Source: Paracoccaceae bacterium
GTDB lineage: Bacteria > Pseudomonadota > Alphaproteobacteria > Rhodobacterales > Rhodobacteraceae
Direction of reading: 5' to 3'
NCBI GenBank assembly: GCA_020441385.1
Contig: JAGRMG010000057.1
Coordinates: forward strand, 1 to 43,644
Length of the DNA: 43,644 bases
This document shows, piece by piece, positions 2,319 to 30,517 of this stretch. The position numbers and the translations under genes are program-made. How positions within the stretch are numbered: position 1 is the first letter of the stretch; each line of letters opens with the position of its first letter. The notes beneath the pieces were generated by a model, which worked only from the letters and a program-made list of their open reading frames with translations, was not told the DNA's origin and did not search any database.

Positions 2319-3851
2319 TCAGGGCGGCGCGGCGGCGTTCGTGCGCCGCAGGATTTCGCCGACCGTCGCCGATACCGGACCCGACGAATCGATCCGGGCC
2401 CAGGCGATGCGGCCCGGATCGCGTGCGAGCTGGCGCTCGAGCACCTCGACCGTGGCGTCGGACGGGCCGCCGCGCCGGTCGCGCACGCGCGCGCGCAGCG
2501 CCGCAGGCCCGGCCTCCAGCCAGATGCAGGTGGGCGCCACGTTCGTGCCGGCCAGCGCCGCGGCGATCGCGGTGCGTCTTTCTTCGCGGTCGAACACCGC
2601 ATCGGCGACGACGCTGGCGCCCGATTTCAGGACTGCGCGCGCGCGTTCGGTCATGGCGGCGTAGACCTTTCCGGAGATCTCGTCGCGATATGCACCGGGC
2701 GGCAGCCGGGTATCGCCGGACACGCCGAAGAGCGCCTTGCGGGTGCGGTCGCTTTCGACGATCCGGGCGCCCGGCGGGGCGCCGACATGGGCCGCCAGCG
2801 CCTCGGCCACCGTGGTCTTGCCGGTGCCGCTGCGCCCGCCGATGACGATGGCGCGGACCGGCGCCGGCCTCAGCAGGGCGCGGGCGAGATCGAAGTAGCG
2901 CCGGGCATCGGCGGCATGATCGGCCGCCTTCGGGCCGCCGCGTTCGGCCTGGGTCGCGATCACGTGGGCGCGGACCTCGGCCCTGAGCGCCATCAGGAAG
3001 GGCAGCAGCGCAAAGCCGTCATCCTCGCCCATGGCGTCGAACCAGCGGTTGGCGGTCAGGGCGGCCAGATCGTGCAGGCCGCGGGCCCACAGGTCCATCA
3101 GCAGGAAGGCGAGATCGTAGAGCACGTCGACATTTGCCAGCCGGTCGCTGAATTCGATGCAGTCAAACAGCGTGGGCCGGCCCTGGAACATGCAGATGTT
3201 GCGCAGGTGCAGATCGCCGTGGCAGCGCCGCACCCAGCCCTGCGCCTCGCGCGCATCCAGCGTGGCGGCGTGCCGCTCAAGCGTGTCGCGAAACGCGCTG
3301 TCGAGCGCGTCGGCCTCGGGCGGCGCGAACACGGTGCTGGTGGCCAGGCCGGCGCGGTTGATGTCGAGCACCTCCGCAATGTTGGCCGCGCCGCCGCCCT
3401 GGTGCACGACCGGCGCGCCGGCATGGAACCCGGCGATTGTTGCCGCCAGCCCTTCCATCAGGCCGGGGGTCAGCCTGCCCTCGCGCGCCATGTCGCTGAA
3501 CAGCGCGTCCGCGCCGAACCGGGCCATTTCCACCACCGCATCGACCAGCGCGCCGGGGCCGTCGAATTCCAGCCCGCCGCCGCGCGCGCGGGTGATCCGG
3601 CGCACGCGCAGGTAGAGTGCGGGCGCCTGCGGGGCATTCAGCTCCAGTTCCCTCTCGCAGGTGGCCAGGCGCGCCTTCAGGGTCGAGAAATCGGCATAGG
3701 GCAGACGGATCGCGCGTTTCAGCTTGAAGGCGCGCTCGCCCGCCAGGAAGACGGTCGAGATATGGGTTTCGATCACCTCGACCGGCGCGCCGCCATGGGT
3801 TTCGGGGTTGGCGAGGAATGCGCGCACGCGCGCCTGGTCGTTGCCGCTCAT
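2319..3851 (-). CDS. Bifunctional aminoglycoside-phosphotransferase-like / P-loop kinase fusion protein
   Basis: 510-aa two-domain protein. Residues ~1-325 resemble the APH/choline-kinase fold: an AFKLKR nucleotide-binding Lys near 42-46, the catalytic loop CHGDLHLRN (HGD at 211-213) and the metal-binding Asp of LFDCIEF (Asp230). Residues ~330-510 are a separate P-loop kinase domain of the AAA_33/zeta-toxin-like type with Walker A GGRSGTGKTT (338-347). Proteins with this architecture are commonly annotated as 'bifunctional aminoglycoside phosphotransferase/ATP-binding protein'; I know of no established substrate, and the APH half does not by itself imply drug resistance. The gene is convergent with the carboxypeptidase and lies 30 bases downstream of ccoS on the same strand, so it might be read through from the cco operon. 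Start ATG is at 3849-3851; no strong Shine-Dalgarno is obvious. Confidence 0.8.
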   Translation of the reverse strand: MSGNDQARVRAFLANPETHGGAPVEVIETHISTVFLAGERAFKLKRAIRLPYADFSTLKARLATCERELELNAPQAPALYLRVRRITRARGGGLEFDGPGALVDAVVEMARFGADALFSDMAREGRLTPGLMEGLAATIAGFHAGAPVVHQGGGAANIAEVLDINRAGLATSTVFAPPEADALDSAFRDTLERHAATLDAREAQGWVRRCHGDLHLRNICMFQGRPTLFDCIEFSDRLANVDVLYDLAFLLMDLWARGLHDLAALTANRWFDAMGEDDGFALLPFLMALRAEVRAHVIATQAERGGPKAADHAADARRYFDLARALLRPAPVRAIVIGGRSGTGKTTVAEALAAHVGAPPGARIVESDRTRKALFGVSGDTRLPPGAYRDEISGKVYAAMTERARAVLKSGASVVADAVFDREERRTAIAAALAGTNVAPTCIWLEAGPAALRARVRDRRGGPSDATVEVLERQLARDPGRIAWARIDSSGPVSATVGEILRRTNAAAPP

Positions 3852-28896: not shown

Positions 28897-29316
28897 TCAG
28901 TCGTCTTCGACCGGGCCGCGCAGCGTCTTGATCTGGCCGCGCGCCTTCTTGGCCCTGAGGCGGCGGCGTTGGGATCCGCGCGTCGGCTTGGTGGCGATGC
29001 GCCGTTTCGGGGCGATCAGGGCGCGCGCGACAAGCTCGGCCAGCCGTTCGCGGGCGATCTCGCGGTTGCGGGCCTGGCTGCGGGTTTCGTCGCACTGGAT
29101 CACCAGCGCGCCCTCGCTGGTCCAGCGCCGCCCGGCCAGCCGTTTCAGACGGGTCTTGACCGGGCCGGGCAGCGCGGGCGAGCGCGCCGCCTCGAAGCGC
29201 AGTTCGACGGCCGTTGCGACCTTGTTGACGTTCTGGCCGCCCGGCCCCGAGGCGCGCACGAAGCTTTCGCTGAGTTCCCAGTCCTGGATGGCGATATCGT
29301 CGCTGATGCGCAGCAT
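28897..29316 (-). CDS. arfB: Alternative ribosome-rescue factor ArfB
   Basis: 139-aa peptidyl-tRNA hydrolase of the RF1-like GGQ family. GGQ is at residues 26-28 inside ASGPGGQNVNK, and the C-terminal tail is strongly basic (KPTRGSQRRRLRAKKARG), which in ArfB enters the empty mRNA channel of a stalled ribosome. It lacks the codon-recognition domain of true release factors. It frees ribosomes stalled on non-stop mRNA. The start ATG 29314-29316 lies at the end of a ~480-base region with hairpins and its own upstream terminator, so arfB must have a separate promoter there. Confidence 0.93.
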   Translation of the reverse strand: MLRISDDIAIQDWELSESFVRASGPGGQNVNKVATAVELRFEAARSPALPGPVKTRLKRLAGRRWTSEGALVIQCDETRSQARNREIARERLAELVARALIAPKRRIATKPTRGSQRRRLRAKKARGQIKTLRGPVEDD

Positions 29317-29559: not shown

Positions 29560-29589
29560 AAAAAGGGCCACCCGCATGGCGGGCAGCCC
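29560..29589 (-). terminator. Rho-independent terminator, minus strand
   Basis: Read on the minus strand: GGGCTGCCCG, loop CCATG, CGGGTGGCCC, then five T (29564-29560). A 10-bp stem with two G-T pairs plus U-run is the best intrinsic terminator in the window. It ends the transcript that contains the short ORF at 29664-29720, not arfB. Confidence 0.8.
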
Positions 29590-29663
29590 TCTCGAAAGTT
29601 GTCGGAGACGGGCCGGTCAGACCGACACCGGTCGTTCGGATGGCGCAGCCGCCACGGGTTGCC

Positions 29664-29720
29664 TCAGCGGGCCGCCCTCCGAATTGTTCCGGCACCTCGC
29701 TCCAATACCTTTCTTGACAC
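29664..29720 (-). CDS. Very short ORF (18 aa) with strong Shine-Dalgarno; leader peptide or sRNA-encoded peptide
   Basis: GTG at 29718-29720, preceded at seven bases by AGGAGG (complement of 29728-29733, within AAAAGGAGGTGG). Product: MSRKVLERGAGTIRRAAR, basic. The spacer TGGTCC between Shine-Dalgarno and GTG is complementary to GGACCA (complement of 29750-29755), so a hairpin could hide the ribosome site. The intrinsic terminator lies about 75 bases after its stop. An overlapping second frame through the same segment also stays open to 29558 and codes YWSEVPEQFGG-like sequence from a GTG at 29767, so either frame, or a non-coding RNA, is possible. Confidence 0.35.
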   Translation of the reverse strand: MSRKVLERGAGTIRRAAR

Positions 29721-29794
29721 TGGACCACCTCCTTTTCCGTTGTTGAACCTGGTCCGAATCGTGCCACGGATCGCCCGGAACGCCAAACGAAATC

Positions 29795-30424
29795 TCACGC
29801 GGCGCGATTGGACGGGTCCAGCCGTTGCACGATCGCCCTGAACGGGATCAGCGCGAGCATCGCCAACGCCAGTTTCACCGACCAGTCGGCCACCGCCAGC
29901 GACATCCAGAGCGGCAGCACCGGGCCGGCCCCGAGCAGCGGCAGCGTTTCGTTGGCCCAGGCCACGTCGTTGCCCGGTTCGATCCAGGCCAGCTGGGCGG
30001 AAAAGGCGACCGTGAAGAAGATCGCCGTGTCGAGCGAGGATCCCGCCAGTGTCGAGACCAGCGGCGCGCGCCACCACACGCCGCCGCGCAGGGCCGAGAA
30101 GATGCCGACATCGAGCAGTTGCGCCGTGAGAAAGGCCAGCCCCGATCCGATGGCGATGCGCAGCGTCACCAGCGGGCCGAACTCGCCCGCGATCTGCGTG
30201 CCGATGAACGAGCAGATCACCCCGACGACGAACCCGGCGAGCACCACCCGGCGGGCGGCGGGGGCGCCGTAGAGGCGATTCATCAGGTCGGTGACGAGAA
30301 AGGCGAACGGATAGGTGAAGGCGCCCCAGGTCAGCCATTGGCCGAACAGGAACTGCACCAGGATGTTGGAGGCCACCACGATGGCGGCCATGGCGACGAT
30401 GCCGGGAATATGTGCGCGTTGCAT
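29795..30424 (-). CDS. Queuosine precursor transporter (VUT/YhhQ family)
   Basis: 209-aa inner-membrane protein with about six helices. The family core is visible: YPFAFLVTDLMNRLYGAPAARRVVL (residues ~38-62), where T-D-x-x-N-x-x-Y-G is the signature, and later SSLDTAIFF. Members import queuine or preQ0/preQ1 for tRNA modification. I chose ATG 30422-30424 (MQRAHIPGIVAM); an in-frame TTG at 30445 would add seven residues. I checked the upstream region for a preQ1-I riboswitch motif and saw none. The gene upstream on the same strand ends or starts 94 bases away. Confidence 0.88.
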   Translation of the reverse strand: MQRAHIPGIVAMAAIVVASNILVQFLFGQWLTWGAFTYPFAFLVTDLMNRLYGAPAARRVVLAGFVVGVICSFIGTQIAGEFGPLVTLRIAIGSGLAFLTAQLLDVGIFSALRGGVWWRAPLVSTLAGSSLDTAIFFTVAFSAQLAWIEPGNDVAWANETLPLLGAGPVLPLWMSLAVADWSVKLALAMLALIPFRAIVQRLDPSNRAA

Positions 30425-30517
30425 GTCTTGGGCCCGTTTTGACAAGGTTGCGGCGACTTGTCCCGCCGGGTGGGGGCGGGCAGGGCGCGCATAGCGCCTG
30501 CGGCGCCCTTGCGCAAG

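Follow-up and report, generated by a model that had tools for sequence, protein, structure and literature searches.

Comparative evidence for a small RNA gene with a reading frame of conserved length, a divergent homologue of the CC2171 RNA

The window analysed here, the whole 43,644-nucleotide stretch of contig JAGRMG010000057.1, carries on its minus strand a compact unit (Table 1) that includes: (i) promoter-like boxes separated by a spacer of 17 nt, (ii) an extended Shine-Dalgarno (SD) sequence that shares one base with the start codon of a short open reading frame (ORF), and (iii) an intrinsic terminator, the hairpin of which lies about 70 bases beyond the ORF stop. The unit is flanked by arfB, which encodes an alternative ribosome rescue hydrolase, and by a gene for a Vut_1/queuosine precursor transporter. 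With the transcription start deduced from the boxes, the RNA likely extends from about 29750 to 29560 (about 190 nt). The predicted fold has a z-score of -4.8 for 29760-29560 and -3.4 for 29748-29560. In the counts below, "family" denotes the bacterial family of the source organism of the window, presumably Rhodobacteraceae-like, while "class" and "phylum" denote wider samples.

Table 1. Minus-strand unit of the window and its neighbouring genes.
Feature	Position	Strand	Remarks
Whole unit	29786-29560	-	promoter boxes through U5
-35-like box TTGGCG	29781..29786	-	family consensus TTTGACA at equal distance
-10-like box CACGAT, weak	29758..29763	-	family form CANNCT after CTGTGG
GGACCA	29755-29750	-	read from sequence
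SD segment AAAAGGAGG	29736-29728	-	read from sequence
TGGTCC, between SD segment and GTG	29727-29722	-	read from sequence
Extended SD AAAAGGAGGTGGTCCAG	29720..29736	-	complementary to 16S rRNA 3' end
18-codon ORF VSRKVLERGAGTIRRAAR, GTG start (29720), TGA stop	29664..29720	-	length conserved in relatives
Anti-SD GGCCCGTCTCC, 3' arm of conserved helix 1	29604..29614	-	family alignment helices
Intrinsic terminator, GC-rich hairpin (29593-29561) and U5 (29564-29560)	29560..29593	-	sequence and structure
arfB, neighbour outside the RNA	28897..29316	-	downstream, same strand, in 36/45 family loci
Vut_1/queuosine precursor transporter, neighbour outside the RNA	29795..30445	-	upstream in 40/45 family loci

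The weak promoter boxes, the extended SD, the GTG, the 18-codon ORF and the U5-tailed terminator noted in the preliminary description of this DNA are all present as it had them. The promoter assignment extends to relatives, with TTGAC placed 56-85 nt 5' of the start codon in 29/45 family loci compared to 2.7% of random 30-mers. A CACA-N5-TGTG dyad lies between the -35 and -10 boxes of 10/45 family loci and is a possible operator. Just 3' of the -10 region, six of the 45 loci (e.g., L011, L012, L050, L051, L053 and L075) have TGTGGATAA, which is taken here to be a DnaA-box-like 9-mer.

A DNA search with the unit finds matches in 15/61 genomes. The 20-base core formed by the ribosome site and start, AAAGGAGGTGRTCCAGTGTC, is recovered with up to two mismatches from 192/248 family genomes, compared to 4/248 for a reversed-pattern control. 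With up to one mismatch, the core occurs in 49/385 genomes of the class and in 30/299 genomes of the phylum, where all 30 are among the 86 genomes inside the class and the 213 genomes of other classes give no match (0/213). The search of relatives with a covariance model, which the preliminary description had proposed, was run with a model built from 43 loci on the 56 family genomes negative for the core pattern. Matches at E up to 0.1 are found in 42/56 of these genomes, many of them weak, and only the 31/56 at E 2e-10 or better are counted. As a rule, there is one copy per genome. The stem, SD and terminator, the conservation of which had been suggested as a further check, are all conserved in relatives. 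The recurrence of the core against its reversed control, the placement of TTGAC and the fold z-score argue against a chance arrangement. Judged by these comparisons, the unit is a real and strongly conserved small RNA gene with a promoter and terminator of its own, as first surmised from the window copy.

The closest known RNA is CC2171 (RF01867), which is described in Rfam as an sRNA and nothing more. At the curated gathering score of 75 bits the window has no CC2171 match; below it, the unit scores 35.6 bits (E 2.9e-6) and is collinear over the entire model (1-159 of 159). A whole-model match is similarly found in 12 of the 14 family loci tested (L002-L015). Outside the family, 20 loci were compared with the model: 6 score above the threshold, 12 score below it at the matching place, and L024 and L046 give no match. 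The threshold is also exceeded at L085, L118 and L119, one of them from Methylobacterium bullatum. The CC2171 loci outside the family, with undoubted members from other orders among them, have the 5' segment, the start codon, the ORF and the terminator in common. The unit shares with CC2171 the first 30 positions, which are near-identical (CAACAA..AAGGAGGUG.UCCAGUGUC), the order of the model with a terminator at the end, a similar length, and the start codon and short ORF that above-threshold members have at the corresponding place. By contrast, the middle helix of the model is mostly unpaired in the window copy, the family ORF starts VSR..LERGVGT where CC2171 members have MSHCH, and the SD helix of the family uses a 3' anti-SD. 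A helix of codons 3-5 with the pre-terminator segment shows covariation at loci outside the family, where z is -5.2 compared to -1.1 for the reversed control, and none at family loci, where z is 0.0 compared to -4.4. Since the match spans the whole model yet scores under the curated 75, the unit is, by sequence comparison, a homologue and divergent branch of CC2171 rather than a member by the score of Rfam itself. Matches to togavirus and RcsR1 models at the terminator fall under their respective thresholds and are set aside. The literature searched, mostly open-access, gives no function for CC2171; the Caulobacter RNA appears by name just as a table entry, and the name is absent from the available part of a report on Caulobacter Hfq RNAs (PMC11005374).

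The preliminary description had likened the complement of the SD to the 16S 3' end, and this resemblance amounts to about 17 nt of complementarity. A 16S 3' end was found in 3/37 relatives, with the sequence GCGGCTGGATCACCTCCTTTCT, and GAAAGGAGGTGATCCAG is its complement over about 17 nt; the same search of the draft genome of the window gave no match. Compared to the 16S complement, the SD of the window has one G-U pair and an A in place of the first G (a mismatch). Each of 37 genomes has between zero and three copies of the 13-nt SD core, and some of these copies are the 16S gene itself. A second 13-nt core in the genome of the window falls inside a coding frame, presumably ClpA/B-like, and was rejected as another such site. 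Most loci found by the covariance model retain only about 12 nt of the match, approximately AGAAAGGAGGTG; thus, the full 16S match is not obligatory. In the Sinorhizobium meliloti member, the 16S-complementary stretch is interrupted by an inserted base.

The ORF is exactly 18 codons long in 40/45 family loci, with lengths of 12, 20, 20, 26 and 26 in the others, and likewise in 23 of the 30 loci recovered by the covariance model without a core match (24 if L088 is read from GTG; L087 and L094 of the 30 duplicate L013 and L014). The earlier remark that the unit codes for almost nothing understates this conservation. Starts and stops are interchanged: GTG 43 and ATG 2, with TGA 24, TAG 12 and TAA 9, in the 45 family loci, and ATG 18, TTG 7 and GTG 5 in the 30 model-found loci. 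TGG, the single non-stop codon of the form T[AG][AG], is found at codon 19 in 0 of 62 distinct loci, a set conditioned on 18 codons, compared to 10.6 expected (Fisher p 2e-9), and Trp is similarly absent from codon 19 of all eight longer ORFs left out of this test. The synonymous excess of the reading frame is 1.46, compared to 0.95 and 0.98 for the two alternative frames. Thus, comparison of the loci shows the ORF to bear marks of translation, with the interchange of starts and stops, the avoidance of TGG and the synonymous excess indicating selection on start, length and stop. The peptide itself is hardly constrained, as codons 13-18, the last six, vary freely and the predicted pI ranges from less than 5 up to 12. 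The search for a conserved peptide within the family and between orders found only start, stop and length to be kept, and between orders the peptide differs while the RNA helices and ORF length persist; with its sequence drifting among loci, the peptide was rejected as a conserved product. A kept length with a changing peptide suggests, as far as alignments can tell, that being translated matters rather than the peptide. Immediately past the stop, family loci have a mini-hairpin of the form RGG-CARN-CCY (window 29664-29655; alignment A2 columns 88-100), the outer pair of which is A-U in 17 loci and G-C in 17, and the S. meliloti and L046 loci also have hairpins with a CAGC loop close to where the ORF ends.

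RNAalifold predicts six helices for 43 family loci, with 96.2% of alignment cells paired, 16 pairs with two-sided changes (7.0 in shuffled alignments) and a covariation of 0.281 (0.195 shuffled; at most 0.105 slid). Helix 1 joins the SD to the 3' anti-SD and helix 2 joins the start region to codons 5-7; both have changes on one side only, which for the SD helix follows from the invariance of the SD. The SD/anti-SD pairs can form in 41 to 43 of the 43 family sequences. The preliminary description had envisaged a ribosome site hidden by pairing of GGACCA with the TGGTCC that precedes the GTG. Both segments are present in the window, while the upstream GGACCA arm is found in 1/45 family loci and 0/31 others; it also falls at or before the likely transcription start and, as a feature of the window copy only, was dropped as the hiding arm. 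The broader notion of a hidden site finds a better candidate in the conserved 3' anti-SD, with which the SD is predicted to pair in 34/39 family loci, although in the window copy both ensemble and minimum free energy predictions leave the SD free and pair the anti-SD with codons 6-7. Predicted SD pairing in the family is 0.83, compared to 0.62 with a shuffled body, whereas outside the family it is lower than in shuffled controls (0.56 compared to 0.70). Permutation tests with reversed controls lend weak support, for family loci, to pairing of the SD with the pre-terminator segment (z -2.7, with +2.0 for the reversed control); at loci outside the family, three out of the four pairings tested score beyond their controls. 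Pairing of codons 2-5 with the pre-terminator segment is no better than permuted controls in the family and was discarded. As the SD of the window is predicted to be free and that of loci outside the family is less paired than controls, a hidden SD or switch may be a family trait at best and is not clearly predicted for the window copy.

The S. meliloti member (record CP090106.1) was found by a search of a plasmid collection with a distant member and matches CC2171 with 34 bits. It encodes MSNEISDLVMDMGEVKESRQPSA, a peptide of 23 aa and pI 4.18. The small protein SEP1 of S. meliloti has the same length and pI, is conserved in Rhizobiaceae and, in the available part of the report, has the highest translation efficiency (TE) of 54 non-annotated translated small ORFs (PMC10117765). 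From the equal length and pI, the S. meliloti member is very probably SEP1, which was published as a small protein and differs in peptide from the window. The name CC2171 is absent from the available part of that report, and no link of CC2171 to SEP1 was found in the mostly open-access literature searched. If the two are the same, the very high TE disfavours a strongly hidden ribosome site.

Taken together, comparison shows for the family branch of CC2171 a promoter, an SD that matches 16S rRNA, an ORF of selected length, conserved helices and a terminator. The unit is somewhat more probably than otherwise a small RNA that is translated and that owes its function to the passage of ribosomes rather than to the peptide, with the output step being inferred. 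A ribosome would bind the strong SD, traverse the 18 codons and halt at a fixed place. Its passage would open the SD/anti-SD and start helices and bare the C/U-rich 3' anti-SD arm, and the helices would close again without initiation. The RNA would thereby report initiation capacity, the output may be the bared anti-SD arm or an altered RNA stability, and the peptide would be a by-product of translation.

Other readings account for parts of the same evidence. The unit could be a plain mRNA for a small protein, in which a peptide of 18-35 aa is the product and the structure is incidental, as the selection on start and stop, the in-frame synonymous excess and the detection of SEP1 as a tagged protein by Western signal and by one peptide spectrum (PMC10117765, in the part available) would be consistent with. 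A peptide that is barely conserved in the family, differs between orders and spans so wide a pI range, in an RNA that keeps its helices and ORF length, makes this quite unlikely. Still more improbable is a 30S decoy or 16S guide, in which the 5' segment would bind the 16S tail and titrate small subunits or help them mature, with the ORF serving merely to clear the ribosome. The long 16S complementarity and the rarity of the 13-mer are in its favour, but the match is shortened in most model-found loci while ORF length is still held in the family, the S. meliloti match is interrupted, and for ribosomes to be titrated by the RNA of a single gene, this RNA would have to be very abundant.

Within the family, the unit might instead be the 5' leader of arfB and act as a ribosome-dependent attenuator, in which the small ORF determines whether transcription ends at the terminator or continues into arfB; both the role and this mechanism are unlikely, though less so than the two readings above. 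The same-strand position of arfB in most family loci points this way, as do a gap from terminator to arfB of under 40 nt in 12/36 loci (shortest 14), which leaves scant room for a promoter, and an SD-like motif at just 6/34 arfB starts. By contrast, the gap in the window is 246 nt. In 7/34 loci (control 1.8%), the arfB ATG is preceded at 5-10 nt by a -10-like TANNNT, which suggests that arfB may be leaderless and transcribed from its own promoter. Covariation is absent between the terminator arm and the segment past the stop (z +1.7), and an antiterminator formed by the two was rejected; other arrangements yield weak predicted pairing only. Neither arfB nor Vut is present near any of the 31 loci outside the family, and the next ORF there, picked by codon-position GC rather than annotation, is on the opposite strand in 11/31, with which the S. 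meliloti annotation agrees; since neighbours differ between family and outside loci, a class-wide leader of one gene was discarded. In one genome from a different family of the class, the CC2171 RNA of locus L027 (1353-1529) lies about 1.2 kb from a tmRNA gene (2723-3020), another ribosome-rescue gene. Leader-derived RNAs have precedents. UpsM of Rhodobacter sphaeroides is similar to the unit and is, as far as the available text describes it, a small RNA that results when transcription terminates inside an mRNA leader, with a small ORF close by; it differs in its mraZ locus and in a small ORF that spans the terminator, in R. sphaeroides only, and the available description does not mention an extended SD (PMC5089854). 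In the duf1127 attenuator of S. meliloti, according to the part of the report available, early codons of an upstream ORF (uORF) mask the ribosome binding site, and the RNA and uORF translation count rather than the uORF peptide; unlike the unit, it is of the Rho type, lacks an intrinsic terminator and precedes the regulated gene (PMC12218461).

The preferred reading, of an RNA whose translation rather than peptide is its function, may be extended to the class only tentatively, and the extension is more doubtful than not. An alphaproteobacterial RNA would sense free initiating ribosomes: its 5' end would read the single-stranded 16S tail, one or a few ribosomes would translate a defined number of codons (18 in the family), and this act, not the peptide, would set the state of the anti-SD arm, which would act on other mRNAs or, in the family, on arfB. 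As judged from the available part of the SEP1 report, the unannotated S. meliloti ORF with the most efficient translation is probably that of the CC2171 RNA, which would already have been observed in this way. The comparison makes CC2171 testable as a translated RNA with a fixed ORF length and a free peptide, the branch of which in this family has a constant position ahead of a gene for ribosome rescue.
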